This document shows, one piece after another, positions 5,581-26,163 of a DNA stretch of 40,513 nt. The position numbers were made by a program, and so were the translations under genes. Position 1 is the stretch's first letter; every line of letters starts with the position of its first letter. The DNA lies in the IMG/VR virus record IMGVR_UViG_3300035682_000077, positions 1-40,513 of that record; one strand, written 5' to 3'. The stretch comes from a virus. The notes under the pieces are model-generated. The model searched no databases. It had not been told where the DNA came from and saw only the letters and a list, made by a program, of their open reading frames with translations.

Positions 5581-5658
5581 TTACGTTGGAGCGTATGGAT
5601 TACGTTTCCAATCACTATCAGTTGGTAGTTCTGGATATACTGGATAATCTATTTTCAT
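5581..5658 (-). CDS. Possible 25-residue peptide gene
   Basis: The ATG (5658-5656) overlaps the TGA of the 439-aa gene as ATGA. The frame encodes 25 residues (start [12 protein letters not shown], end [10 protein letters not shown]) and stops just before the terminator. The start overlap, Pro/Tyr/Trp-rich sequence and fit to the exact space before the terminator argue that it is translated, but the length is too short for certainty. It has no membrane segment. The function is unknown. Confidence 0.4.
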
Positions 5659-6974
5659 GGTATAGCATTAATTGTTGCTAATATTGCTTCAAGATCAGAC
5701 TTTAATAATTTAAGTTGATCTGGATCATTAAAATCTGTTCTATTAATTTTTCGAAGTAATTTTTTTCTATCTGTTTCTCTTTCAATAGAATCATCTGTTC
5801 CATCATGATCAATATCTGTAAATGATCCATATCCACCACTTTGTTTTTTACCTAATTTAGACCATGCCCATATGGTTTCCCATATTGAATCAACCAATTG
5901 ACTATTAATAGTTTTATTTTTTGCATATTCAGCATCAATTTTGTTGGCAATCATTTTAACATTGTTAGAATATGATGGATTGTTTACAAATCCTCGTGTT
6001 TGACCACGAACAAAATCTTGAACAAATTTGGATACAGATTCTGCTTCTGTTAACATACGACTTTCAACTACTCTACTGAATAATTTATATTGTTTATCTC
6101 TTGTTGATTCTTTAACCTTTGTCTCGGCATTCTTTGCGATTAACGTCTTATCATATTCTTCTTCAAAATCAAATTGAGCTTTCTCTGCCGCAGCAATTGC
6201 CTTCTCTTTGTTGTTTGATTTTGACATTTCTGCATTGAAGGCGGCCCATCCGGCGTCAGTTGATTTCTTTTTTAGATCATCCGCGGCCTGCTGTTTCGCT
6301 TTATTTTTTAGATCATCTTCTATGGATTTAGAAGTAGGAGCTGGCTTAGGCGATGGACTAGGAGCTGGTGATGGACTAGGAGCTGGCTTAGGAGCTGGAC
6401 TAGGGACTGGTGATGGACTTGGTGCTGACTTAGGCGATGGACTAGGCGATGGACTAGGGACTGGTGATGGACTTGGTGCTGGCTTAGGCGATGGACTAGG
6501 AGCTGGCTTAGGAGCTGGACTAGGGACTGGTGATGGACTAGGCGATGGACTAGGCGATGGACTAGGAGCTGGCTTAGGCGATGGACTAGGGACTGGTGAT
6601 GGACTTGGTGCTGGCGATGGACTAGGAGCTGGTGATGGACTAGGAGCTGGCTTAGGCGAAATGGCCGCAAGTTGTTTGGCTTTTCTCTGTTGAGCCAATT
6701 GTTGAGCGGCAGGACTATTCATAATATCTTTACCAGATTGTCCTAGTTGAGTAGTAGCAGATGTAGTTGTTGACGTAGAGGGTACGACTACTCCAGATTT
6801 AATCGCAGATTGTAACGAAGAAGATAATTGATTTAAAAAATCTTTACGACCATATTCTTTTATTTTTTCATCTCGCACTTTATTATTTTCATCTTTGGAT
6901 CTAAATTTACTAGCTATAGCTGAACCTAGACCCTCAGTAACATGTTTTGAGTTTGATAAATCACTGATTTTCAT
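5655..6974 (-). CDS. Proline-rich late protein with MKI-type N-terminus (439 aa)
   Basis: Three parts are visible. The N-terminus (1-100) begins [17 protein letters not shown] and continues as a charged helical region. Residues about 107-217 are an uninterrupted Pro-Ser/Ala/Lys repeat ([13 protein letters not shown] type), which should form a stiff extended linker. The C-terminus (about 220-439) is helical and charged, with [22 protein letters not shown] and an Asp-rich calcium-loop-like [10 protein letters not shown] (about 391-400). The start overlaps the TAA of the 82-aa gene (TAATG). It is expressed from the late promoter at 7227. The short MKI N-terminus resembles that of four other late proteins here, so it may be head-packaged. 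That is inference. Confidence 0.65.
6335..6655 (-). repeat. Short tandem repeats coding for a Pro-Ser linker
   Basis: About 320 bases of degenerate 6- and 12-base units (plus-strand words ggagctgg, ggcgatggac, gggactggtg) inside the 439-aa gene. All units keep the frame and code Pro-Ser, Pro-Ala or Pro-Lys pairs. The GC content is clearly above that of the surroundings. Such arrays can change length by slippage without frameshift, because the unit is a multiple of three. Confidence 0.85.
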
Positions 6975-14845: not shown

Positions 14846-14874
14846 ATTATACTTATCTTATTATACTATGTCAA
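14846..14874 (-). promoter_or_regulatory. uvsW: Sigma70-type promoter for uvsW
   Basis: TTGACA (14874-14869), 17 bp, TATAAT (14851-14846), then ACTTACT and the ATG. It is a consensus promoter with essentially no leader. Confidence 0.9.
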
Positions 14875-14884
14875 GTGATTAGGC

Positions 14885-14914
14885 AAACAAAAGCCCCAAT
14901 TAAGGGGCTTTTTT
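14885..14914 (-). terminator. Terminator, GC-rich stem, usable in both directions
   Basis: AAAAGCCCC/GGGGCTTTT arms (14889-14897 and 14904-14912) with a 6-base loop. T-runs occur on both strands. It ends the AAA+ gene and stands directly before the uvsW -35 box. Confidence 0.88.
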
Positions 14915-14928
14915 GACACTAGATAAAA

Positions 14929-15972
14929 CTAGCTATTGGTAGTACATGTATTCATAGCGAGATTTTTCCAATCAGTTGAATCCACTTTCATCAGATCGGC
15001 AATTTTAAGTGCCATACGTAAAGATACTTCACGAAGAACACTACGATTTTCCCACATGAAATCCAAAACTTGATCACCCTCATTGGATTCAAAATCATAT
15101 TCATTGAACAAACCACCATCAGCATCACGATGAACCTGACGAATACGTAACATACGATCACGTACAGTGTTAATGGTCAAATCCAGATAGTGACAACGTG
15201 ATTGGAGTGCCTCAACGTGAGCGGCAATTTTACCACGAGCTGTACTGAAATTCAAGTTAGTGATGAAAATGACACTACCATTGAAATCAAAACTTGGTGG
15301 AATTCCTTCTTCACGAAGTTTACGTGAGTCAGTGTTCCAGAAAATCTTGCGACGTTTGCCACTATCCAATGCGGCTTTCAGAATGTTAAGCGCATCTTCA
15401 TCATGGAAAATATCACAATCGTCAAACACTAAGACGTTTTTACGATCACTAAATTTGTACAGAGTGGCATATAAACCCAAGGCTGACATGGCGCCCTTGA
15501 CAATTTCGTAACGAGGTTTTTTTCCAGCAATTAAGTCCCACGATTCGTATTTTGACAATTGTTGTTCAACGCCAAATGATTTACCAACTCCCGGTGGGCC
15601 CGATACGATCAAGGCACGAATATCACTACTAACACAGGCATTTGACATTTTTTCTAGAATAGAAAAGCGAGTGGCAATGCGATTCATGGCATCTTCATCA
15701 GATTCCGCTGGAACTTCTGGTTCTTGTACGGCGGGAATAAAACTTGACACTTGTGTTGATACAGATTTGCGCCCAGTTTCCAACACTTCAATGGCGCTTG
15801 GATTGGGTACATCAATATAACACAACTTTGATTTAGTTGGAAGTTGACCTGAATTTTTCACTTGAATACGCCCATCTTTATTTGACGTAAGCGGGCGTGC
15901 CAAAGTGAAAACAGTGTTTTCAAATTTGAAGTCTTTATAAGTACCGCTGGTAACACGAATTGAAGTAGCCAT
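14929..15972 (-). CDS. AAA+ ATPase with N-terminal beta domain (347 aa)
   Basis: The ATPase core shows Walker A GPPGVGKS (125-132), Walker B VLVFDDCD (about 174-181), sensor-1-like ITNLNFS and a helical lid with arginines (LREVSLRMALKIADLM). Residues 1-62 look like a small beta domain (TSGTYKDFKFENTVF), and 63-95 are a disordered linker. I recall similar AAA+ ATPases in T4-like marine phages. The substrate is unknown; loading or remodelling of replication or recombination proteins would fit the neighbours. The coding sequence is richer in G and C than the surroundings. It starts behind AAGGGA and its own sigma70 promoter, and ends at a GC-rich terminator. Confidence 0.8.
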   Translation of the reverse strand: MATSIRVTSGTYKDFKFENTVFTLARPLTSNKDGRIQVKNSGQLPTKSKLCYIDVPNPSAIEVLETGRKSVSTQVSSFIPAVQEPEVPAESDEDAMNRIATRFSILEKMSNACVSSDIRALIVSGPPGVGKSFGVEQQLSKYESWDLIAGKKPRYEIVKGAMSALGLYATLYKFSDRKNVLVFDDCDIFHDEDALNILKAALDSGKRRKIFWNTDSRKLREEGIPPSFDFNGSVIFITNLNFSTARGKIAAHVEALQSRCHYLDLTINTVRDRMLRIRQVHRDADGGLFNEYDFESNEGDQVLDFMWENRSVLREVSLRMALKIADLMKVDSTDWKNLAMNTCTTNS

Positions 15973-16005
15973 TTATTAATCCCTTAGAATCATTGAACAG
16001 ATATC

Positions 16006-16034
16006 AGTATAACGCAAACTTGATTTATTGTCAA
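16006..16034 (-). promoter_or_regulatory. Sigma70-type promoter for the AAA+ ATPase
   Basis: TTGACA (16034-16029), 17 bp, TATACT (16011-16006). The -35 box begins 3 bases after the stop codon of the upstream OB-like gene. Confidence 0.88.
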
Positions 16035-16036
16035 AT

Positions 16037-16714
16037 TTATTGGAATTTAGTGTAGTTTAATTGCGACACAAATCCATCACGATGGGACTTGACTTTCCCA
16101 GTTAATTTAACTGTATTTCCAACAGCCAAAAGTGGCCCCCAATTACTTGTGGCGAAAAATACACTAAGATTCTCTTTAGTAATTCCAGAGATAAAATAAC
16201 AGCCATAATTCTGAGAATATGAGGCTTTGACAATCTCTACACTAAGTGTAACTTTAGTACCAATATCGCCCACATATTCATTTAAACATTCACGTAAACG
16301 ACTATCTACATCGCGACGTTTTTGTGACTTTGAAAAGGTCAATGGCATACATGCTATTGTTGCCATTTCACGTTCTGAAATTTCTTCTCCGCTGGCCAAA
16401 TTCATTGACTTCATTTGAAAATCATTAAGAATTTTACCTTTGAGAATTTCAAAAGTAAGTGCCTTGAAATGAGTACGAATATCTTTACCAAGCTCACGAT
16501 CAGAATCAGTGATTTTATGTGGTTCTGCCAAAAACCCAATCATCAATTGTTTATTTGGCAGTTTATGTTGTTGAACAGGAATATTATCGGCATCAGCAAT
16601 TTCATACTGATTTAAATCAACTTTAACGTATTCACCCTGATTGACACGATCAGCGGCGGCTGATGCGGCAAACATCAAATCCGCGGGATACATAACTGAT
16701 TTTTGTCGTGCCAT
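16037..16714 (-). CDS. OB-fold-like protein, unknown function (225 aa)
   Basis: The C-terminal 85 residues read like an OB fold: a strand set KVTLSVEIVKASYSQNYGCYF, SVFFATSN, then VGNTVKLTGKVKSHRDGF. The first 140 residues are mixed, with a charged DSDRELGKDIRTHFKALTFEI helix. I do not know the family. Single-stranded nucleic-acid binding would be typical for such a fold. The start is ATG 16714 with GGAG 9 bases upstream; an upstream in-frame ATG (16792) would overlap the preceding gene. It is co-transcribed with the 106-aa gene and followed at once by the next promoter. Confidence 0.65.
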   Translation of the reverse strand: MARQKSVMYPADLMFAASAAADRVNQGEYVKVDLNQYEIADADNIPVQQHKLPNKQLMIGFLAEPHKITDSDRELGKDIRTHFKALTFEILKGKILNDFQMKSMNLASGEEISEREMATIACMPLTFSKSQKRRDVDSRLRECLNEYVGDIGTKVTLSVEIVKASYSQNYGCYFISGITKENLSVFFATSNWGPLLAVGNTVKLTGKVKSHRDGFVSQLNYTKFQ

Positions 16715-16715
16715 A

Positions 16716-17036
16716 TTACATACTCCAATATGATTCAGAACTGGGTGAACAAAAAGAAGGCGTATCATAGCGTTCTTGAAATTCTTCGCCACTCAGAATA
16801 TTTTTACGAGTGACATAAGTTTCGTGTAATTCAACACGATAACCTTTACTAACGGGATAAGTACCGATTTGAATTGCATCTACATGAGCCTGAGCCGATT
16901 TCAGTGGTGCCTCAACAGACAGATCATACTTTTTAACCAGACTTTCGCCTGACTTGCGACGACCATCGCGTTTATAAACTTCTACAGTATACTGTTTTTC
17001 TTCTACTGGGAAATACGCTGGGTAGTTTCGTAACAT
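16716..17036 (-). CDS. Small early protein of unknown function (106 aa)
   Basis: Not recognised. It is a soluble alpha/beta protein with charged strands (KQYTVEVYKRDGRRKSGE, GYRVELHETYVTRKN) and a Ser-rich end (SFCSPSSESYWSM). The start is ATG 17036; the open frame extends further but enters the promoter. It is the first cistron after a sigma70-type promoter (17068-17096), and its TAA is one base from the ATG of the OB-like gene. Short, individually promoted early genes often act on the host, but there is no sequence evidence for that here. Confidence 0.6.
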   Translation of the reverse strand: MLRNYPAYFPVEEKQYTVEVYKRDGRRKSGESLVKKYDLSVEAPLKSAQAHVDAIQIGTYPVSKGYRVELHETYVTRKNILSGEEFQERYDTPSFCSPSSESYWSM

Positions 17037-17067
17037 ATTTACTTCCTTTTCTCTAGTGTATGTGTAT

Positions 17068-17096
17068 ATTTTACACGAAAATGGATTTGTTGTCAA
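17068..17096 (-). promoter_or_regulatory. Sigma70-type promoter for the 106-aa gene
   Basis: TTGACA (17096-17091), 17 bp, TAAAAT (17073-17068). The -35 and first half of the spacer (TTGACAACAAATC) are identical to the next two promoters upstream. Confidence 0.88.
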
Positions 17097-17126
17097 TAAA
17101 AAGTGTTGTATTTTTACAACACTTTT
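17097..17126 (-). terminator. Terminator fused to the following promoter
   Basis: A 12-bp perfect stem (AAAAGTGTTGTA/TACAACACTTTT, arms 17099-17110 and 17115-17126) is followed on the minus strand by a short T-run that leads straight into TTGACA. It ends the 101-aa gene. Confidence 0.8.
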
Positions 17127-17133
17127 ACATTAA

Positions 17134-17439
17134 TTAAGTAGTCCATTTATCACCAGTAATTACGTTAACCAACTCAACCCCAGAGCCAAAAGCGGCACGA
17201 GCTTCAAAACGCTCTTCATCACTGGGACCTTTGTAATTTTTACAATAAGATTCTAAAAATGTAGATTGTTCTTTTTCACGAACTAAATTACTTTTAGCAA
17301 CTTCTTTTTTAAGAATATTGCCGTTTTTATAAAGTTGTTCTAACATATCATTAAATGGAACTCGTTTACTTGATTTCCAACGTACAACGCCATTTGTTAC
17401 ATAAATCTCTTTTGCATGTTTTTCAATGTTATTAAACAT
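17134..17439 (-). CDS. Small early protein of unknown function (101 aa)
   Basis: Not recognised. It is Lys/Glu-rich and helical (NNIEKHAKEIYVTNG, FNDMLEQLYKNGNILKKEV, DEERFEARAAFG). I prefer ATG 17439, which has GAGAG about 6 bases upstream; ATG 17451 (four residues longer) is possible. It is monocistronic: its own sigma70-type promoter is upstream and a 12-bp terminator lies right after its stop. This isolated promoter-gene-terminator unit looks like an exchangeable cassette. Confidence 0.6.
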   Translation of the reverse strand: MFNNIEKHAKEIYVTNGVVRWKSSKRVPFNDMLEQLYKNGNILKKEVAKSNLVREKEQSTFLESYCKNYKGPSDEERFEARAAFGSGVELVNVITGDKWTT

Positions 17440-17471
17440 TTTCGCTCTCATTTATCAGTTTCAATACAAGT

Positions 17472-17500
17472 ATTTTACAGTAAAATGGATTTGTTGTCAA
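17472..17500 (-). promoter_or_regulatory. Sigma70-type promoter for the 101-aa gene
   Basis: TTGACA (17500-17495), 17 bp, TAAAAT (17477-17472). Its spacer is nearly identical to that of the promoter at 17068. Confidence 0.88.
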
Positions 17501-17506
17501 CAAATA

Positions 17507-17526
17507 GTGTTGTATTTAAGCAACAC
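17507..17526 (-). terminator. Hairpin GTGTTG/CAACAC before a promoter
   Basis: A 6-bp stem with an 8-base loop spanning the stop codon of the 61-aa gene, followed by ACTATTTG and the next -35 box. It is weaker than the related hairpin at 17097 but shares the CAACACT word. Confidence 0.45.
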
Positions 17527-17701
17527 GTTCGTATGTGGCACGAAAGTAGCAATCATAAGAACCACTTGCATATTCATCACAAAACTTCTTAGCTTCTGCC
17601 TCATTGTCAAAGAACTTAGTGCCCATGGGACGTTGACCCCAGCCACTTTCATACTCTGTCATAGTGACTTTGTACAGATGAGAAACACGGACTTCTGCCA
17701 T
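17516..17701 (-). CDS. Small early protein of unknown function (61 aa)
   Basis: A compact alpha/beta protein, MAEVRVSHLYKVTMTEYESGWG, then FFDNEAEAKKFCDEYASG. The strand-helix order and the EAEAKKFCDEY helix recall small phage proteins that sit in early regions, but I cannot assign a function. The ATG (17701) is one base after the TGA of the 45-aa membrane protein, so the two are co-translated. It is the third cistron of the unit driven by the promoter at 18184. Confidence 0.6.
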   Translation of the reverse strand: MAEVRVSHLYKVTMTEYESGWGQRPMGTKFFDNEAEAKKFCDEYASGSYDCYFRATYERVA

Positions 17702-17702
17702 A

Positions 17703-17840
17703 TCAATTATCTCCCAGTCGTTTCTGTCGTCTCACTCGACCCCATGCTAAACATGCAATGATAAACGCCGCACATGCTGCCAGTAACCCAATGAGCGATA
17801 TCGCAGTTAATACTACGAGTCCAAAAGTAATTTCAACCAT
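17703..17840 (-). CDS. Small single-span membrane protein (45 aa)
   Basis: A short gene with a perfect AAGGAG Shine-Dalgarno sequence 7 bases before ATG 17840. It encodes one long hydrophobic segment (about residues 5-32: FGLVVLTAISLIG, then LLAACAAFIIACLAW) followed by a basic tail (GRVRRQKRLGDN). By the positive-inside rule this predicts N-out/C-in orientation in the inner membrane. The stop is TGA, and the next ATG starts one base later. Candidates are a host-membrane modulator, a superinfection or lysis-timing protein. No family is recognised. Confidence 0.75.
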   Translation of the reverse strand: MVEITFGLVVLTAISLIGLLAACAAFIIACLAWGRVRRQKRLGDN

Positions 17841-17860
17841 TTTCAACTCCTTATTAACTA

Positions 17861-18145
17861 CTAGAATAACTGACCTTGTGCCAATTGTTCTTTATGTAAC
17901 TCGTATGCCTTAAGTTCAAGAGTATCTACAGTACGAGTACGACCATCGTAAAAGTGGTTGTGACATTGACCTTTTGTGTCTACTTCAGTCCACGAGGGAT
18001 CACTCACTACTTTGAACATCCAAGTGCCATCAGTAGCGGGACCGACTACCAAGTAAGTTAAACCCTTTTCTTTGCCACCAAAAGTTGTATACAATACACG
18101 ATGACGAGTTTTTACAAGAGTTCTAAGTTCTGTGCTGATTCTCAT
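17861..18145 (-). CDS. Small early protein of unknown function (94 aa)
   Basis: Not recognised. It begins MRISTELRTLVKTRHRVLY, continues with beta-like phrases (LTYLVVGPATDGTWMFKVV) and a His/Cys group (QCHNHFYDG) in the middle, and ends with a helical, Gln-rich tail. The His/Cys group could bind metal but is not a known motif. It is the first cistron after the sigma70-type promoter at 18184-18212, followed by the 45-aa membrane protein and the 61-aa protein. Confidence 0.6.
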   Translation of the reverse strand: MRISTELRTLVKTRHRVLYTTFGGKEKGLTYLVVGPATDGTWMFKVVSDPSWTEVDTKGQCHNHFYDGRTRTVDTLELKAYELHKEQLAQGQLF

Positions 18146-18183
18146 GATCTTTTCTTTTTCTACTGTTTAACTACTATAACTAC

Positions 18184-18212
18184 AGTATAGACGAAAAGAG
18201 ATTTGTTGTCAA
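18184..18212 (-). promoter_or_regulatory. Sigma70-type promoter for the 94/45/61-aa unit
   Basis: TTGACA (18212-18207), 17 bp, TATACT (18189-18184). It shares TTGACAACAAATC with the promoters at 17068 and 17472. Confidence 0.88.
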
Positions 18213-18235
18213 ATTTGAAATATTGAGAATATCTC

Positions 18236-18257
18236 AGTGTTGCATAAAAACAACACT
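18236..18257 (-). terminator. Hairpin AGTGTTG/CAACACT after the methylase
   Basis: A 7-bp stem with an 8-base loop lies just downstream of the methylase stop (18263). It is the third copy of the AGTGTTG/CAACACT stem in this early block. The T-run sits in the loop rather than after the stem, so termination strength is uncertain. Confidence 0.45.
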
Positions 18258-18262
18258 AAGAT

Positions 18263-19174
18263 TTACTCAGTAAAAAGCGTATTATATGTGGAATTTACTA
18301 CTTTTTTGACTTTGGGAATGATGATATCTGGCTGTGGGATATAATTCAATACAGCGATTTCTGTACCACGACTATTTTTCTTATAATTTTCTTGTTTATG
18401 ACCACGAGTACTAGACCAACGAAATACATCTTGACTATGCCAATGATATTGATCTTTGGGATACCATTGTTCTAATTCTGGAAAATCATAATAACTTAAA
18501 CACCATTTACCTTGAGCGTTTTTAAGTGTATCAGCCAATTCTAAATGTTTTGTATCTGGGAATTCTGCCGTATATAAATATTCTTTCTTAAAATATGGTG
18601 GATCAACATAAAAGAATGTAGTTGGACTATCATATTTTTTAATCAAGTCAATACAATCCATGTTTTCTACTTGTGTAACACCAGTTAATCTATCAGTATA
18701 AGTTTTATTTGTTAACTTATCTTTTATAGTATCATATTTGCTACCATACTTTCCATTACTGGCAGTATCACAAAAATAACTATTAGTATTCAGACCAAGT
18801 GTTGTACCACTAAAGATTTGAGTTTGAAGATAAAGATATTTTGCAGCCAATACAACATCACCAAGAATTACAGTTGATGAATTTCCAAATATATCTTGTT
18901 GAAATTGTTTATATAATGTTGGATCGCTTTTGGAATAACTTTCTAATTCTTGTAATAATTGTATATGTTTGGATCTAAAACATTCATGAATATTGGCAAT
19001 AAAGATATTAAAATCGTTATATACTCTAGTTGAACATTGTAAGATTCTTTTACTACGAATACCAACCCATCCAGCCCCACCAAATACTTCTACGAATGTA
19101 GTCATTCCAGAAACTGGAAATAATGGATCTAACCATTTAACATGATTGGCTTTACCGCCGATATATGGGAACAA
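18263..19174 (-). CDS. dam: DNA adenine methylase, copy 1 (D12 class, 303 aa)
   Basis: It transfers a methyl group from SAM to N6 of adenine. The Dam-family order is clear: FPYIGGK at the N-terminus (2-8), SAM-binding FVEVFGGAGWVGI (27-39), and catalytic DPPY (191-194) in FFYVDPPYF. The start codon is TTG (19174-19172), with GGAG 6 bases upstream and a sigma70 promoter with TATACT; no ATG fits. It is a paralogue of the gene at 20583, with the same N-terminal and catalytic motifs but clear divergence elsewhere. Likely roles are protecting phage DNA from restriction or marking it. The target site cannot be read from sequence. Confidence 0.9.
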   Translation of the reverse strand: MFPYIGGKANHVKWLDPLFPVSGMTTFVEVFGGAGWVGIRSKRILQCSTRVYNDFNIFIANIHECFRSKHIQLLQELESYSKSDPTLYKQFQQDIFGNSSTVILGDVVLAAKYLYLQTQIFSGTTLGLNTNSYFCDTASNGKYGSKYDTIKDKLTNKTYTDRLTGVTQVENMDCIDLIKKYDSPTTFFYVDPPYFKKEYLYTAEFPDTKHLELADTLKNAQGKWCLSYYDFPELEQWYPKDQYHWHSQDVFRWSSTRGHKQENYKKNSRGTEIAVLNYIPQPDIIIPKVKKVVNSTYNTLFTE

Positions 19175-19206
19175 AGATATCTCCTAAGTATACTTAATTA
19201 AATAAT

Positions 19207-19235
19207 AGTATACTATATATTGTACATTATGTCAA
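19207..19235 (-). promoter_or_regulatory. dam: Sigma70-type promoter for methylase copy 1
   Basis: TTGACA (19235-19230), 17 bp, TATACT (19212-19207). It lies in the gap after the 440-aa gene. Confidence 0.88.
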
Positions 19236-19249
19236 TATTATTTGGATAG

Positions 19250-20572
19250 TTATTTGATGCCTTGTTCTCTTTTGGCGGCTCTAACAATATCACCCACGTC
19301 CCACATATGAGGGAATGTGCCACCTTCTTTGAATCCAACATTGATTTTTACTAATTGTTCGCCTTCTTCACTTTCAATAATTAGATTACACGATACAATA
19401 TCTGGACTATCTGGAATATCATATCTAATATTGAATCCGGATTTCAACTGTTGATATAGTTGCCCAAACTCTTTACTGGTTCTACTACTAACCGGAATCA
19501 TTCTTTGACGTTCAGTTCCGACCAATAGATATACATCATCCGCACCATCTAGTCCCAAACGTTGTAGAATTCTTTCGTTGATTGCGGCTTTATCACGACC
19601 ATAAAAATCATTAAACATTCTGCCAAATAATAGATCGCGCATCTTTTGATATCCACGATTAGCGGTAACAAATTCATTTGCAGTTTTTCTATAATTTGGA
19701 TCGTTCTTTTTCTTAAGATCGTTTTTTATAACAAGCCATTGATCGGTAATAGCCAGAACTTCTTCAACTTCTTGAGTATATTCTGGATGATCTTTTAAAA
19801 ATGATTTAACAGCTTTCTTACCAGTTCCAGGATCATTTTTACCTGTTAGAACAGTAACTAGATAACTAGCAAAAGTACTATTATAAACATTAACACCGCC
19901 TGAATTTTTATATAATTTCAGACTGGCCTTGATCATGTCTTGAGTTTCTTCGGTACCTTTCTTTTTGATTTTGATCAAAATATCTTCTTTACCAGCACCC
20001 ATAGATGAGATTCCAGTCAAGACAATATCAACATCAATCAATTTAAGATCATGAGAGGATATAATTTCGTCCCATAATTTTTTAGCCATGATTTCTGAAC
20101 CATCTTCGGCTCGTTGAAGTTCAGATTGAATTGTTGCTAATGGTTTCTTGAATTTTTCTGCATTATCCAAGATAAGATTTTTATAGTTTTCAGCATGTCT
20201 TTTCAACCCACCTTCAATTGACGGATTGATATTTACACCATTGTGTTCAAAAGCATATGCAAGTTTCCATGCCACGCTGAATTCATTGAAGTAACCAATC
20301 ATTGCGGTCAAGTCAAATTTATCTCTAGTGGCCTTAGGTTTTGGTGGTTTTGTTTTTGGATCAGGAGGAAGTGAATTTGATTGATTCACTGGTGTCGTTG
20401 ATTCTGTTGATTCTCTAAGAGAGTTAAGTCCCATAGCAGTCGCTAAATTAATTTCCACTTGTTGACCAAATCCTATACGTTTAATAATTTTTCCAACCCA
20501 GTCAAATATTTTCTGAGCACTGGTTCTAGTCCAATTGATAATACCTTCGTGTAAGAGTTCGTTGATTTTCAT
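19250..20572 (-). CDS. Late protein, possible PD-(D/E)XK nuclease, MKIN N-terminus (440 aa)
   Basis: It starts MKINELLHEGIINW, a short amphipathic leader like those of other late proteins here. A Pro/Lys linker (about 60-85) leads to a globular domain. A plausible nuclease core is Glu97 in YFNEFSVAWKLA, Asp197 in GKEDILIKI, and Ser217-Leu-Lys219 in IKASLKLYK, which fits the E...D...xK order of restriction-type enzymes. No close family is recognised. I use ATG 20572; the frame also opens at 20596 but that would precede the promoter's start region. Its own late promoter overlaps the stop of methylase copy 2. The gene lies between two adenine methylases, which suggests, but does not prove, a modification/cleavage pairing. 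Confidence 0.5.
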   Translation of the reverse strand: MKINELLHEGIINWTRTSAQKIFDWVGKIIKRIGFGQQVEINLATAMGLNSLRESTESTTPVNQSNSLPPDPKTKPPKPKATRDKFDLTAMIGYFNEFSVAWKLAYAFEHNGVNINPSIEGGLKRHAENYKNLILDNAEKFKKPLATIQSELQRAEDGSEIMAKKLWDEIISSHDLKLIDVDIVLTGISSMGAGKEDILIKIKKKGTEETQDMIKASLKLYKNSGGVNVYNSTFASYLVTVLTGKNDPGTGKKAVKSFLKDHPEYTQEVEEVLAITDQWLVIKNDLKKKNDPNYRKTANEFVTANRGYQKMRDLLFGRMFNDFYGRDKAAINERILQRLGLDGADDVYLLVGTERQRMIPVSSRTSKEFGQLYQQLKSGFNIRYDIPDSPDIVSCNLIIESEEGEQLVKINVGFKEGGTFPHMWDVGDIVRAAKREQGIK

Positions 20573-20579
20573 AATATAG

Positions 20580-20587
20580 TATTTATT
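20580..20587 (-). promoter_or_regulatory. Late promoter AATAAATA overlapping a stop codon
   Basis: AATAAATACTATATT then ATG 20572. The TAA of methylase copy 2 is part of the motif. It has the same CTATAT(T/C)ATGAAAATC context as the kinase-like gene at 32370. Confidence 0.65.
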
Positions 20588-21509
20588 CAAATTCAAACAA
20601 ATTCGTATCAGCTAGATTTATCTTTGATTTAGTTATTATATCAGATTTTAAATCTGGTGTATAGTTTAATATCAATACTTCTACTCGTTTTGTTCTGACA
20701 CCTTTAGCCTTTTTACCATCTTTTCTCACAGCACCATCAACCTTGGTTAATCCATTGTTACTATATGTAACTTGTTCATGCCAGTAAAATTTGTCTCTTG
20801 GCATGATATCTTCAAGTTCTTTGAAATAGTAATAACTTAGAGCAAACTTACCCTTCATAGTACTCATTTGAGTCAATAATTCAATATGATCATCACGACC
20901 AAAACTGTTCTTAGTATAGTAATCTTCTAAATTAAAGTACGGTGGATCAACATAAAAGAAAGCATCTGAACTGTCATATTTTCTGATAACATCACGACAA
21001 TCCATGTTTTCAGTTTGTAATACTGCCAATTTGTCCAGATACTTTTTCTGTTCAAACTTCTCAGCGTAGGTAAAAAACTTAGGCTTGTATTTGGGATTAT
21101 GATAGATGTTACTACGTTCATGAATACCCATACCACCACTGAAAATTTGAGTTTGAAGCAACATATACTTGGCTGCTAGATCATAGTCAGGAATAGCAAA
21201 TTGAGTGTTATATACAGAAAATACATCATCACGATATTGTGTGAACATTTTGGCATCACCCACATCTTTATAATAACTTTGCAATACTTTATGATAATGT
21301 TTTGGATCTGTTGCTGAGCACTGAAATACATTAACCAAATGTCTATTAAAGTCATTGTATACGTTTGTTTGTACAGAAGTTTTAGCACTTTGCCAATACA
21401 TCCACATTGCCCCACCAAATACTTCTACATAAGTAGAAAAATCAGTTGGGAACAATGGGTCAATCCATTTACTATGTTGTTTCTTGCCACCGATATACGG
21501 GAACATCAT
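20583..21509 (-). CDS. dam: DNA adenine methylase, copy 2 (D12 class, 308 aa)
   Basis: An N6-adenine methyltransferase. MFPYIGGKKQHSKW at the start, SAM-binding YVEVFGGAMW (27-36) and catalytic DPPY (188-191) in FFYVDPPYF are intact. The last 60 residues differ from copy 1 (basic stretch RKDGKKAKGVRTKRVE). Starts are ATG 21509 or, better spaced from AGGA, ATG 21506. It follows UvsY by 6 bases and belongs to the gp32-UvsX-UvsY transcription unit, so it would be made with the recombination genes. Copy 1 has its own early promoter, so the two may act at different times or on different sites. Confidence 0.9.
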   Translation of the reverse strand: MMFPYIGGKKQHSKWIDPLFPTDFSTYVEVFGGAMWMYWQSAKTSVQTNVYNDFNRHLVNVFQCSATDPKHYHKVLQSYYKDVGDAKMFTQYRDDVFSVYNTQFAIPDYDLAAKYMLLQTQIFSGGMGIHERSNIYHNPKYKPKFFTYAEKFEQKKYLDKLAVLQTENMDCRDVIRKYDSSDAFFYVDPPYFNLEDYYTKNSFGRDDHIELLTQMSTMKGKFALSYYYFKELEDIMPRDKFYWHEQVTYSNNGLTKVDGAVRKDGKKAKGVRTKRVEVLILNYTPDLKSDIITKSKINLADTNLFEFE

Positions 21510-21515
21510 TGATCC

Positions 21516-21977
21516 TTAAATTGAGAAATCTTCCATACCAGCAGTTTTTAATCTAACCAGATGGCCCATCATAAAGTTTTTACTTTCTAATGCTTTCATA
21601 ATACCAAGCCATTTGTTACGTAGTAAAGCAACTTCATTACATAATGTTTCCATGTCAATAATGTCTGATTCTCCATCTACATAACGCTCAGCATCACGAC
21701 TAGTTAATGCTCTATTGTAAGCCTCTAGAAATTTTTTAAATGTCTGACTACGTAATTTTCTAAGTTGAATGTTTAAATAATTAAGAACTGCTTCAATTTC
21801 TTGAAGTTGATTGAATCGTTGTTCTGTAATTCCTGGTAAATATGCTATACTCTTTTCTATACTACCCTTGATATGAGTATCAAATTTTGCCTGATTTAAT
21901 TCAGTTTCATAATGAGAAATAAAATCAGGCAAGTTTGCTAAGTTTTGAGTAATCTTAGTATACCAATTCATACTCAC
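21516..21977 (-). CDS. uvsY: UvsY recombination mediator
   Basis: It helps UvsX displace gp32 and load on ssDNA. The family landmark is the C-terminal half: RALTSRDAERYVDGESDII, a helix LCNEVALLRNKWLGIMKAL, then ESKNFMMGHLVRLKTAGMED, which corresponds in order to T4 UvsY (WGILL..., ..IKHIQDMRAF). The preceding helix (EIEAVLNYLNIQLRKLRSQ) is also typical of the longer marine versions. At 153 aa it is slightly longer than T4 UvsY (137). The start is GTG 21977 (overlapping the previous TGA) or ATG 21971. Its place behind uvsX supports the call. Confidence 0.85.
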   Translation of the reverse strand: MSMNWYTKITQNLANLPDFISHYETELNQAKFDTHIKGSIEKSIAYLPGITEQRFNQLQEIEAVLNYLNIQLRKLRSQTFKKFLEAYNRALTSRDAERYVDGESDIIDMETLCNEVALLRNKWLGIMKALESKNFMMGHLVRLKTAGMEDFSI

Positions 21978-22255
21978 CAGTCTTCATCATCTTCATCAGA
22001 TTCATCGTCATAAAAATCAGATTGATCTTCATTCAATTCATCTTCTTCACTATCAGACCAATCTTCAGAATCCATATAATATTTTAATGCATCAATAATA
22101 TCACCCTCACCACGAAATGCTTTACGAATTTCATCTGGGCCAATATCATGATCAATCAACAGAGAAATGACATTATCCGCAACAACTGAACGATCACTAC
22201 TAATGATGCTTTCTTTAACTGCCGACCACATTTCGGCTACTAATGTTAAACTCAT
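21974..22255 (-). CDS. Small acidic protein between UvsX and UvsY (93 aa)
   Basis: A helical N-terminal part (LVAEMWSAVKESI, ADNVISLLIDHDIGPDEIRKAF) is followed by an extremely acidic tail (about 66-93, mostly Asp and Glu with Ser and Tyr). Such proteins are, from memory, conserved between uvsX and uvsY in T4-like marine phages, with no known role. The acidic tail could mimic DNA and modulate a DNA-binding partner such as UvsX, UvsY or gp32 (inference). A GAGGAGG Shine-Dalgarno and TAATG overlap with uvsX imply tight coupling. Confidence 0.7.
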   Translation of the reverse strand: MSLTLVAEMWSAVKESIISSDRSVVADNVISLLIDHDIGPDEIRKAFRGEGDIIDALKYYMDSEDWSDSEEDELNEDQSDFYDDESDEDDEDW

Positions 22256-23313
22256 TATTCAATTTCCTCCTCAATAATTGTATTTATAACCTGATCTTGT
22301 TTACCAAATTCATCCATTACTAAATCCATAATACCATTTTCATTCTTAGACCATTCTTTACGAAAGTATTTGTGAACTTCACCATTAAGATCAGTATAAG
22401 TATAACGATTACCTTCTTTCTTAATCATACTACGTTTTTCAATAAGATCAAAGAAACCACTATATGGATTCATACCAGTTTCATAAGGAATCTGAATTTG
22501 AATATCTTCAAATGGTTTGGCATAACGAGTTTTCATAATTTTACATCCGGCACGAATACCAAGAACATCAGTAACTTTATTACCAGCCTCATCTTCTTTT
22601 AGTTTGAGTTTTTTCATTGCCACTACAATTGAACTGGCATATACGAAACCACTACCACCACTGATCTTTGGATCGGGACTATATGGATCTTGTGATTCAT
22701 AACTATGATTAGTACAAATCATACCTACATTCAAACTACCAAACATGTTAACACAATTGGTTACCAATGATTTAAGAGCTTTAGGTTTGTGACCCATATC
22801 ACCCTTCATTTCACCACCTTGAAATTGATTAACTTGAACTGGTGTCATTAACATACCCAATGAATCAACTACAAATAATACTTTTGGTCTATCTTCTGGT
22901 TCCAATGCTTTATAATCTTTCATGAATACAGCTATTGTTTTAGCCACATCATCAACCATAGCCATGTTTAATTTCAATAGTTTTTCTTCACTAGTATCAA
23001 CACCTAATGCCAATAACCAACTTTCGTCAAGTGCATTTTCACTATCAATTAATACAACATAGATTCCTTGAGCTTGAGCATTTTTAATAACATTTCCACT
23101 ACAGATATATGATTTACCGGCACCACTTTCACCAGCAAATACAGTAACTTTACCAAGAGGAATACCCTTGTTAAAGTCACCACTAATCAAATAGTTTAAT
23201 GCATAATTGCCAGTACTGATCCAATCTGTTGGATCATGAAATCCAATACTCATACCTTCAATTGACTTTGTAATATCTTTTCTAAACTTTGATAGATCAA
23301 AGGGTTTTTTCAT
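22255..23313 (-). CDS. uvsX: UvsX recombinase (RecA-like)
   Basis: Catalyses homologous pairing and strand exchange for recombination-dependent replication and repair. The RecA-type core shows Walker A GESGAGKS (61-68), Walker B VLFVVDSLGML (near 145-155), and the L1/L2-region phrases QVNQFQGGEMKGDMG and SYESQDPYSPDPKISGG. The acidic, helical end is like that of phage UvsX. At 352 aa the length is normal (T4: about 390). The start overlaps the upstream TAA (TAATG) with AAGGAA as ribosome site. Confidence 0.95.
   Translation of the reverse strand: MKKPFDLSKFRKDITKSIEGMSIGFHDPTDWISTGNYALNYLISGDFNKGIPLGKVTVFAGESGAGKSYICSGNVIKNAQAQGIYVVLIDSENALDESWLLALGVDTSEEKLLKLNMAMVDDVAKTIAVFMKDYKALEPEDRPKVLFVVDSLGMLMTPVQVNQFQGGEMKGDMGHKPKALKSLVTNCVNMFGSLNVGMICTNHSYESQDPYSPDPKISGGSGFVYASSIVVAMKKLKLKEDEAGNKVTDVLGIRAGCKIMKTRYAKPFEDIQIQIPYETGMNPYSGFFDLIEKRSMIKKEGNRYTYTDLNGEVHKYFRKEWSKNENGIMDLVMDEFGKQDQVINTIIEEEIE
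22281..22288 (-). promoter_or_regulatory. Possible internal late promoter TATAAATA
   Basis: An exact T4 late consensus within the last codons of uvsX, about 26 bases before the acidic 93-aa gene, with GAGGAGG between. It may be a chance match in AT-rich coding DNA. Confidence 0.35.
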
Positions 23314-23555
23314 TATGTTCCTTTATGTAATTGCTTACCATTAGTATACGGTGAAAAGCTTTCTGTGTCAAGTAGTTCCGGACAAGAATTAGCCATTCGT
23401 TCAAGATCATAATCGGTTGGATAATGTCTTAGTACACCACGTGCTCGTTCTCTAACGATACCAGGAACTCTAGGAGTTTTTCCAGGATCGCATAATTCTT
23501 CTAATAATTTTTTACTGTACTTTAAAGCGCGAAATCGCTCATCAGGTAAAGTCAT
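23313..23555 (-). CDS. BPSL0761-like small protein (80 aa)
   Basis: The sequence MTLPDERFRALKYSKKLLEEL, then PRVPGIVRERARGVLRHYPTDYDLERMA, has the pattern of the BPSL0761 family: short proteins of unknown function found in bacteria and some phages, often with a PDERxRAxxxTRxxLxxL start and a HYP motif. Its base composition is somewhat richer in GC than its neighbours. It lies between gp32 and uvsX, behind a strong GGAG site. Transfer from a bacterial host is possible. Confidence 0.65.
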   Translation of the reverse strand: MTLPDERFRALKYSKKLLEELCDPGKTPRVPGIVRERARGVLRHYPTDYDLERMANSCPELLDTESFSPYTNGKQLHKGT

Positions 23556-24724: not shown

Positions 24725-24753
24725 ATTATAAACAACTAATATCTATTTGTCAA
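24725..24753 (-). promoter_or_regulatory. 32: Sigma70-type promoter for gp32
   Basis: TTGACA (24753-24748), 17 bp, TATAAT (24730-24725): exact consensus. It gives a leader of about 75 bases. Confidence 0.9.
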
Positions 24754-24782: not shown

Positions 24783-25370
24783 TTATTTTAAATATCCATC
24801 AGTAAAATTTGATGAATTAAAATGAATTCTATTTGTATGTTGTGATGAATGATTTTCATCTTTTGCAAATATACCTACAAAATCATTCCAAATATCGGTA
24901 ATTTTAATACCTATAAATGATTCTAATAATACACAATTGTACCCTGATCTTTTACCCCAGTTTTGAAGAGCTAATCCACTATCTGGGAAAAATCTCCAAC
25001 AATCAACAGGAAACCTATGAACCTGTCCATTTGATGGTACATTTATATATAATAATCCAGTTGGTTTAAGTATTCTTAATGATTCATTGAATATCAACCA
25101 AAAAAATTCTGAATGTTCAAAACATGAACTACTTACAATAACATCAACAGATTCATTTTCAAAAGGTAAAGAATATGGATCAGTGATTACAATATCAACT
25201 CCATTTCCCTTAACAAAATCTACTCCTATATATTTGTTATTTGGTGGTGCCACTGATCTTAAACTACCATTTACATCTTGAGATCCTATATCAACTATAG
25301 TTAAATCTTTAGTATTTTTAAGATAAGTATCAAAAAATTTACCACCGTATTCCATTGCAGTATCATGCAT
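24783..25370 (-). CDS. SAM-dependent methyltransferase, class I (195 aa)
   Basis: A Rossmann-type methyltransferase. Motif I is TIVDIGSQDVNGS, the ribose-binding acidic residue is in KYIGVDFVKG, and motif IV/post-motifs are in DVIVSSSCFEHSEFFW and LRILKPTGLLYINVPS, the Methyltransf_11-like pattern. The substrate is unknown. Together with the 261-aa gene it may modify a sugar, LPS-like structure or small molecule. I choose ATG 25370 (AAGGA 10 bases upstream); the frame opens at TTG 25391. It follows the 261-aa methyltransferase with 7 bases between, so the pair is one unit. Confidence 0.8.
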   Translation of the reverse strand: MHDTAMEYGGKFFDTYLKNTKDLTIVDIGSQDVNGSLRSVAPPNNKYIGVDFVKGNGVDIVITDPYSLPFENESVDVIVSSSCFEHSEFFWLIFNESLRILKPTGLLYINVPSNGQVHRFPVDCWRFFPDSGLALQNWGKRSGYNCVLLESFIGIKITDIWNDFVGIFAKDENHSSQHTNRIHFNSSNFTDGYLK

Positions 25371-25377
25371 ATTTAAA

Positions 25378-26163
25378 TTATCCTTTAACAATTATTGACT
25401 TATCCGTAAACGGATCTGGCCAATCTACTCGTGCGGATGAAAGACCGTTATATCTAAAATCACTAACGCTTTCAGTTGGTATCTTATTCCATATAAGATC
25501 AGGTCTTTCTTTAATATCAGGGTCAACATGATAGGCAACAAGACCAGTAAAAAATCGTACAGAATAAATTAAAGAAAATAAATCTACAATTTTTTGATTT
25601 TGTACAATCGGAAATTCACCAGGAAAAAAGTGATCGTTTTTTATAAGTAAAGAATCAGTAGAATCCTTAACATATTCCAAAAAACTATGTTCTCTATGTG
25701 CTGAAAATTCTTTTAGAAAACTTGTTACTGTATCTTCAACAGCAATTATACATTTATTTTTTGCAGCCTTAAGAGCCTCTGATACAGTTACAATTTGTTG
25801 AAAAGATTGATGACCACCATCGTCAAGTAATACATCAAAATTACCTATACTATTGAATGTGGTTTTCCAAAATTCAGGATCACCTTGATCACCAATATAT
25901 ATCTCAAAACCATATTGTTCCCATTTTTTTGCAGCAGGATTTAAATCAATACCAATAATTCTGGCATTATCACCTAACCACTTTCTCCACATGAATAATG
26001 ATCCACCATTGAAAACCCCAGTTTCAATAAAAGTACAATTAGTACCTCGTAAATGCTTAAATAATTCAGCATAAATTTTAAAGTAATTTGTTACTTTAAA
26101 TGATGATTCCTGAGATTGAAGAAAACATTGTAATAATTCTTGTTCATCATCATGATGATCCAT
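25378..26163 (-). CDS. SAM-dependent methyltransferase, sugar O-methyltransferase-like (261 aa)
   Basis: The core CTFIETGVFNGGSLFMWRKW (motif I), ARIIGIDLNPAAKKW, EIYIGDQGDPEFW and FDVLLDDGGHQSFQQIVTVSEAL is the pattern of TylF/CmcI-type methyltransferases, which often act on sugars in surface polysaccharide or antibiotic pathways. The Asp-Asp-Gly-Gly-His group is the likely metal/catalytic site. It starts at ATG 26163, 7 bases after AGGGA, and that site lies in the 3' arm of a hairpin. The start of this gene is therefore probably controlled by which transcript is made. Confidence 0.75.
   Translation of the reverse strand: MDHHDDEQELLQCFLQSQESSFKVTNYFKIYAELFKHLRGTNCTFIETGVFNGGSLFMWRKWLGDNARIIGIDLNPAAKKWEQYGFEIYIGDQGDPEFWKTTFNSIGNFDVLLDDGGHQSFQQIVTVSEALKAAKNKCIIAVEDTVTSFLKEFSAHREHSFLEYVKDSTDSLLIKNDHFFPGEFPIVQNQKIVDLFSLIYSVRFFTGLVAYHVDPDIKERPDLIWNKIPTESVSDFRYNGLSSARVDWPDPFTDKSIIVKG

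Follow-up and report, generated by a model that had tools for sequence, protein, structure and literature searches.

Promoter-early stem-loops (PeSLs) were reportedly described in T4-type phages by Arbiol et al. in 2010 and by Comeau et al. in 2014. As presented in the excerpted text of PMC4503421, the T4-type PeSL is composed of a terminator stem-loop and an early promoter, is repeated in the plastic region of the genome, and is credited with gene shuffling. T4-type PeSLs are also cited in passages of PMC4177764 and PMC3950731. In the haloarchaeal myovirus HGTV-1, according to the same passages of PMC3950731, an inverted repeat and a promoter-like region are located ahead of most ORFs in one genome arm, and both regulation and shuffling were proposed for these PeSL-like motifs. 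For the jumbo phage CBB of the RaK2-like group, extracts from PMC5259590 give 11 of 18 RpoD-like promoters before short hypothetical early genes, as well as 74 predicted terminators. No report of hairpin-promoter composites in jumbo phages was found in the accessible passages of the open-access literature.

Genomic Context of the Window

The stretch of DNA analyzed here, herein referred to as the window, is a virus record of 40.5 kb (40,513 nt) with a GC content of 33%. It is a fragment of the genome of an uncultivated jumbo myovirus. Genes for SSB, UvsX, methyltransferases, a helicase, and a primase were found on its minus strand. In a DNA search, positions 15500-23400 of the window matched 57 named phage records. 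Among the 40 of these matches that were listed, mainly the uvsX gene was matched, with 66-70% identity, and most of the 40 belong to jumbo phages, for example PA5oct, GAP32, RaK2, and CBB. The genes and elements of the analyzed locus are as follows:

14846-14912, minus strand: composite with another stem, AAAAGCCCC/GGGGCTTTT, and a 12/12 promoter, before the helicase gene
14929-15972, minus strand: AAA ATPase (phrog_1250), the conserved anchor for finding relatives
16006-16034, minus strand: promoter P0, with a single mismatch in its copy of the core, before the AAA gene
16716-17036, minus strand: 106-aa protein with the C-terminal motif FQERYDTPYYCSPSSESYWS
17068-17096, minus strand: promoter P1, TTGACA-17-TAAAAT, then the leader ATACACATACACTAGAG, before the 106-aa gene
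17099-17126, minus strand: hairpin 1, a 12-bp stem and then a T-tract, terminator-like
17134-17439, minus strand: 101-aa protein, constant as the right neighbour across the four lineages
17472-17500, minus strand: promoter P2, TTGACA-17-TAAAAT, ahead of the 101-aa gene and its predicted driver
about 17505-17526, minus strand: hairpin 2, GTGTTG/CAACAC, overlapping the end of the 61-aa gene
17516-17701, minus strand: 61-aa cargo protein
17703-17840, minus strand: 45-aa hydrophobic cargo protein, probably a membrane protein
17861-18145, minus strand: 94-aa cargo protein
18184-18212, minus strand: promoter P3, TTGACA-17-TATACT, ahead of the 94-45-61 aa cassette and its predicted driver
18231-18262 (core 18236-18257), minus strand: hairpin 3, an extended stem ending the MT1 methyltransferase gene
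18263-19174, minus strand: D12-class adenine methyltransferase MT1, the fixed left neighbour

MT1 and a second D12-class adenine methyltransferase (20583-21509) are paralogues, with DNA tracts 73-79% alike. Internal repeats were found in a 439-aa gene (5655-6974), where positions 6335-6660 gave self-matches in a BLAST comparison.

Hairpin-Promoter Junctions

The initial annotation described three neighbouring junctions sharing an AGTGTTG/CAACACT hairpin followed by a promoter with a common start, and such junctions were indeed found at 17.1, 17.5, and 18.2 kb. All of them are read on the minus strand, and in each a GTGTTG/CAACAC hairpin is followed by the core TTGACAACAAATC and then by a -10 box. 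The three exact copies of the core in the window, all on the minus strand, occupy positions 17084-17096, 17488-17500, and 18200-18212; a copy with one mismatch, also on the minus strand, was found at 16022-16034. By a zero-order estimate, 0.003 exact copies are expected in the window by chance, and the reversed control pattern has no copies there. A sigma70-type promoter begins with each core; its spacer is 17 nt long, and 11 of its 12 letters agree with the consensus.

The hairpin as originally described is exact at two junctions (17102-17123 and 18236-18257) and was found in none of 100 shuffles; in the middle hairpin, one end pair is broken, leaving the stem GTGTTG/CAACAC. The fold energies are -15.4 kcal/mol (z -4.9) for hairpin 1, -8.2 kcal/mol (z -1.2) for hairpin 2, and -23.2 kcal/mol (z -5.8) for hairpin 3; hairpin 2 is thus weak. 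A good T-tract is present only at the 17.1-kb hairpin, the other two having no proper one. No hairpin of the AGTGTTG/CAACACT type was found at P0 (16034). Strong promoters with other stems or no stem are also present in the window, at 14874 and 24753.

From the sequence of these elements, we infer early transcription and termination at the junctions. The hairpin would end transcription of the preceding gene, and the host-type sigma70 promoter, together with a constant leader carrying a ribosome-binding site, would start the next one.

Gene Content in Four Lineages

A scan of viral contigs for the 3' arm of the hairpin plus the core yielded 23 stretches, 20 of which were taken as real; L020, L026, and L027 have no proper -10 box and were rejected as chance occurrences. 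A scan with the AAA protein yielded 488 relatives, 80 of which were kept. Four lineages were distinguished that share MT1 and the 101-aa gene as flanks. Lineage W includes the window and eight further contigs with at least 99.9% identity, four of them covering the interval completely. Lineages B (G009) and D (G010) are represented by one contig each, and lineage C by four contigs with different sample numbers and 99.7-99.99% mutual identity. The DNA identity of core genes to W is 96.6% for B, 95.8% for D, and 92.3% for C. With L035/L038 as the root, the tree places lineage C as the first branch, outside W, B, and D.

Between MT1 and the 101-aa gene, lineage W has genes for 94, 45, and 61 aa, and lineage B has a 71-aa gene, a second hairpin-promoter, and genes for 94, 87, about 87, and 53 aa. 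Only the genes for 87 and about 87 aa were found in lineage D, and no genes at all in lineage C. The expectation that gene content would vary in sister phages while the junctions stay was therefore borne out, with four gene sets between the same flanks in four lineages; identical genes in identical order in all relatives, the pattern contrary to this expectation, do not occur.

All of these sequences are metagenomic contigs, with single contigs for B and D, and contigs misjoined at repeats might produce differences of this kind. Such an artefact is considered extremely improbable. The four C contigs come from different sample numbers and carry the same join, and the additional window-type contigs, including those across the whole interval, agree with the window. 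To our knowledge, the 13-nt tract at the C join is also shorter than would be expected of any assembler word, which counts against misassembly.

Several other differences between the lineages were observed. Insertions away from the junctions were found in lineages C and D. Two methyltransferase-like genes of the window (24783-26163, about 1.45 kb) are missing in these lineages, and one end of the gap is located 37 nt upstream of the 12/12-consensus promoter at 24753. The 440-aa gene between the two paralogous D12 methyltransferases has ~3.6 kb in its place in lineage B. In lineage C (G008), a 71-aa gene that shares its family with the cassette gene of lineage B is located elsewhere (window 16712-16723), where it is inserted without a hairpin-promoter border.

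Position of the Joins

The tract common to P3 and P2 in W is TTGACAACAAATC, exactly 13 nt long. Lineage C, the empty form, consists of the left flank of P3 fused to the right flank of P2 via this core, so that the core of P2 is the join. To the left, lineage C is 98% identical to the P3 flank over 60 nt, versus 23% for the P2 flank; to the right, it is 97% identical to the P2 flank over 60 nt, versus 47% for the P3 flank. This hybrid join is consistent in 4/4 C contigs.

In lineage B, the leader TAGTTAAACAGTA is present three times (copies 0, 1, and 2). The left side of P3 in the window corresponds to the left side of copy 0 (97% over 36 nt, others 33-44%), its right side to the right side of copy 1 (97% over 80 nt, others 36-42%), and the two portions meet in a 29-nt tract. 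Lineage D combines the left side of copy 0 (94%) with the right side of copy 2 (93%), with a tract of 16-19 nt between them. Starting from a B-like arrangement, a single crossover between short direct repeats would be enough in each case to remove the 71-aa gene in W and to form the left join of D and that of C; the events in W, D, and C could also have run in the reverse direction, as gains. W and D are also unlike B in the genes adjoining hairpin 2.

The 404-bp block from P2 to P1 differs between W and B at one site (0.2%, versus 4.4% elsewhere; Fisher p 6e-7) and between W and C by 7.9%, which would fit a recent exchange of this block between W and B. Deviating values were also obtained for the genes for 151 aa (0.9%) and 225 aa (1.5%) and for MT2 (11.5%), so mosaicism is general and extends beyond the junctions. 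No breakpoints at P1 and P0 were found among the lineages compared, and the breakpoints near 16.7, 12.8, 10.6, 20.6, and 26.2 kb are at junctions without a hairpin-promoter composite. A general enrichment of breakpoints at these promoters is not claimed, because breakpoints are also present at gene borders lacking the composite.

We read the junctions as terminator-plus-early-promoter cassette borders where recombination swaps the genes lying between, and assign this reading a probability of about 0.75. Recombination is placed at the borders because several of them have 13 to about 70 nt in common. The earlier proposal that the junctions are recombination points is supported by joins located inside the promoter and leader repeats. 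Genes would be deleted, inserted, or exchanged when copies recombine, whether the two reside in a single genome or in phages infecting the same cell, and the exchange would leave a working hybrid border. The recombining enzyme and the direction of each event, as a gain or as a loss, are likewise what we infer; a UvsX/RecA-like recombinase and an SSB are among the products encoded by this phage.

The junctions may instead be ordinary gene borders, with terminators and early promoters alike by function, non-homologous turnover occurring anywhere, and products with an intact promoter surviving. Gene turnover at junctions without the composite and the strong promoters whose stem is different or missing are in line with this, as are ten more distant loci, where promoter copies are barely more alike within a locus (52%) than between loci (45%). 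However, 3/3 resolved joins are located at homologous positions inside exact common tracts (13, 16-19, and 29 nt), and the copies have loop, stem, and leader letters in common for which there is no obvious functional need. Ordinary borders are thus regarded as unlikely, and exchange at cassette borders is preferred. How lytic phages exchange accessory early genes with expression kept intact is an old question, for which these close relatives provide near base-level snapshots of joins.

The Composite in Other Viral Contigs

Counted by strand, 11 records contain 176 TGTTG-N3-10-CAACA hairpins, and a sigma70-type promoter lies no more than 40 nt downstream of 42 of them, versus 1.3 expected. Neighbouring gene families were compared for 41 composite elements in 9 records, one of which (element 11) is probably a chance occurrence; the second border of lineage B (6344 of G009) is not among the 41 because its stem is imperfect. 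MT1 is followed across the border by four different families in W, B, C, and D, and the 74-aa family F10 has a different family after it in each of G001, G003, and G004. Families F14 and F18 are each followed by two different families. The pair of the 101-aa and 106-aa genes is constant (4/4).

Collection-wide, the exact hairpin with TTGACA was found in at least 119 stretches, versus 22 with the reversed hexamer. A -10 box at 16-18 nt was found in 118 of 122 places (116 further loci); among the 18 control loci that were new with the reversed hexamer, 4 of 18 places have one. The GC content of loci with hairpin and TTGACA ranges from 33% to about 49%. In named phages, DNA matches to the element are at chance level only. 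Those with the best E-value (0.07) are annotated as motA, and the one inspected lies within the motA coding sequence.

The gap between hairpin and hexamer is 10 nt in 56 of the 122 places, which is the mode. A second gap cluster was observed at 20-22 nt (loci L322-L437), approximately one helical turn from the first. These sequence clusters hint that a spatial constraint beyond termination may operate, and the leader beyond the -10 box is also conserved. Both the fixed distance and the conserved leader would suit a system that is chiefly a regulon, with the hairpin or the core as the operator of a phage regulator and recombination incidental. That is judged very improbable, as no regulator was identified, the stems read well as terminators, and hybrid joins are seen directly.

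Variable intervals were also found around the AAA gene. In 52 of the 80 AAA loci scanned, the 151-aa gene is present together with the AAA gene. These two genes are 101-9206 nt apart (median 1349), and a core-like promoter lies between them in 49 of the 52 loci, some of which are near-duplicates, so that the loci are not independent. For the neighbouring control interval, from UvsX to the 151-aa gene, a length of 246-357 nt was measured in 42 of 43 loci and 944 nt in the remaining one. In L036, L037, and L041, the variable interval contains only a 225-aa homologue, and L035/L038 have only part of the accessory genes of the window. L303 (46.8% GC, AAA protein 52%) has homologues of the 94-aa (59%) and 71-aa (67%) proteins near hairpin-promoter borders, in a different order. 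For homologues of the 61-aa protein, a core-like promoter at most 700 nt upstream was found in 8 of 53 cases and a hairpin nearby in 11 of 53, so that most of them have no border of this kind close by, which speaks against gene and border being strictly coupled.

On the reverse strand of L017 (G003), positions 1-1600 contain a run of small genes, including two tandem paralogues, and each of the first four genes of the run has its own core promoter. The contig ends inside this array; perhaps the repeats broke the assembly.

A tentative extension, to which we give somewhat less than even odds, is that many unrelated-looking uncultivated jumbo phages have a common 'expression socket', and that small early genes move from socket to socket between lineages. 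Its parts would be a GTTGTAAAAATACAAC hairpin, a fixed gap, TTGACA-TATAAT, and a ATACACATACACTAG leader with a ribosome site. A conserved socket would make it possible to search uncultivated jumbo phages for mobile early genes.

Cargo Genes

The 45-aa hydrophobic protein noted previously is real and, among the loci compared, confined to window-type contigs. The 94-aa protein is present in lineage B and missing from C and D. The 61-aa family has 58 homologous loci in IMG/VR, with 93% amino acid identity in G001, and the 106-aa family has 155, of which 80 were kept. The C-terminus FQERYDTPYYCSPSSESYWS is near-invariant in this 106-aa early protein family across the 155 uncultivated viral loci. 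Both families are well conserved in uncultivated viruses, but 50,697 named phage records contain almost none of either, and the relatives there are weak and partial only; no named-phage relatives of the 94-aa and 71-aa proteins were found.

The initial annotation also proposed that genes for host takeover or anti-defence gather here in a hot spot. The part concerning recombination points is supported, and the part concerning gene role is not. PHROGs, Pfam, and PADLOC yielded no match of known function for the small cargo proteins. When the 61-aa (pLDDT 87) and 106-aa (pLDDT 77) families were modelled with AlphaFold, no PDB match at E<0.001 was obtained, with best values of 0.23 and 0.06, respectively, and the top BFVD matches of the 61-aa model are uncharacterised phage proteins only. 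Since neither sequence nor fold yields a function, the host-takeover or anti-defence reading is not supported. Methyltransferases adjoin the cassettes.

Comparison with Known Systems

In a T4-like control record, one AAGGACTCC/TTCG stem was found before a TTTAC...TATAAT promoter. A generic scan for hairpin-promoters gave little excess in this control (7 versus 4.3 expected) and none in CBB (7 versus 6.1 expected, in 100 kb of 378 kb). As the control itself is weak, the generic scan is insensitive, and the nulls for parts of CBB and PA5oct carry little weight. Promoters and terminators of CBB are treated separately in the extracts from PMC5259590, which mention neither a hairpin-promoter composite nor shuffling. 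The HGTV-1 motif has an archaeal TATA-box-like region, unlike the sigma70-type promoter of the window, and close relatives are not compared in the cited passages of PMC3950731.

With the T4 PeSLs, as far as these are described in the excerpts, the window composites share a terminator-like stem-loop with an early-type promoter, repetition, and variable genes. The stem-loop is located directly upstream of a sigma70 promoter, one of the three stems being weak, and several near-identical copies are present at the borders of small accessory genes. The content between copies varies in relatives while the copies persist, and three exchange joins lie inside the element, other joins of the region being outside it. 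The stem is GTGTTG/CAACAC with an A-rich loop, unlike the TTCG of the T4 PeSL, and the promoter core and phage lineage are also different. For the window elements, joins between relatives are resolved to 13-29 nt. The elements do not belong to the T4 PeSLs proper, having neither the same phage group nor sequence kinship to the T4 elements. Within the scope of the excerpted descriptions, they have the organization and apparent role of PeSLs, with a different sequence and in a different phage group.
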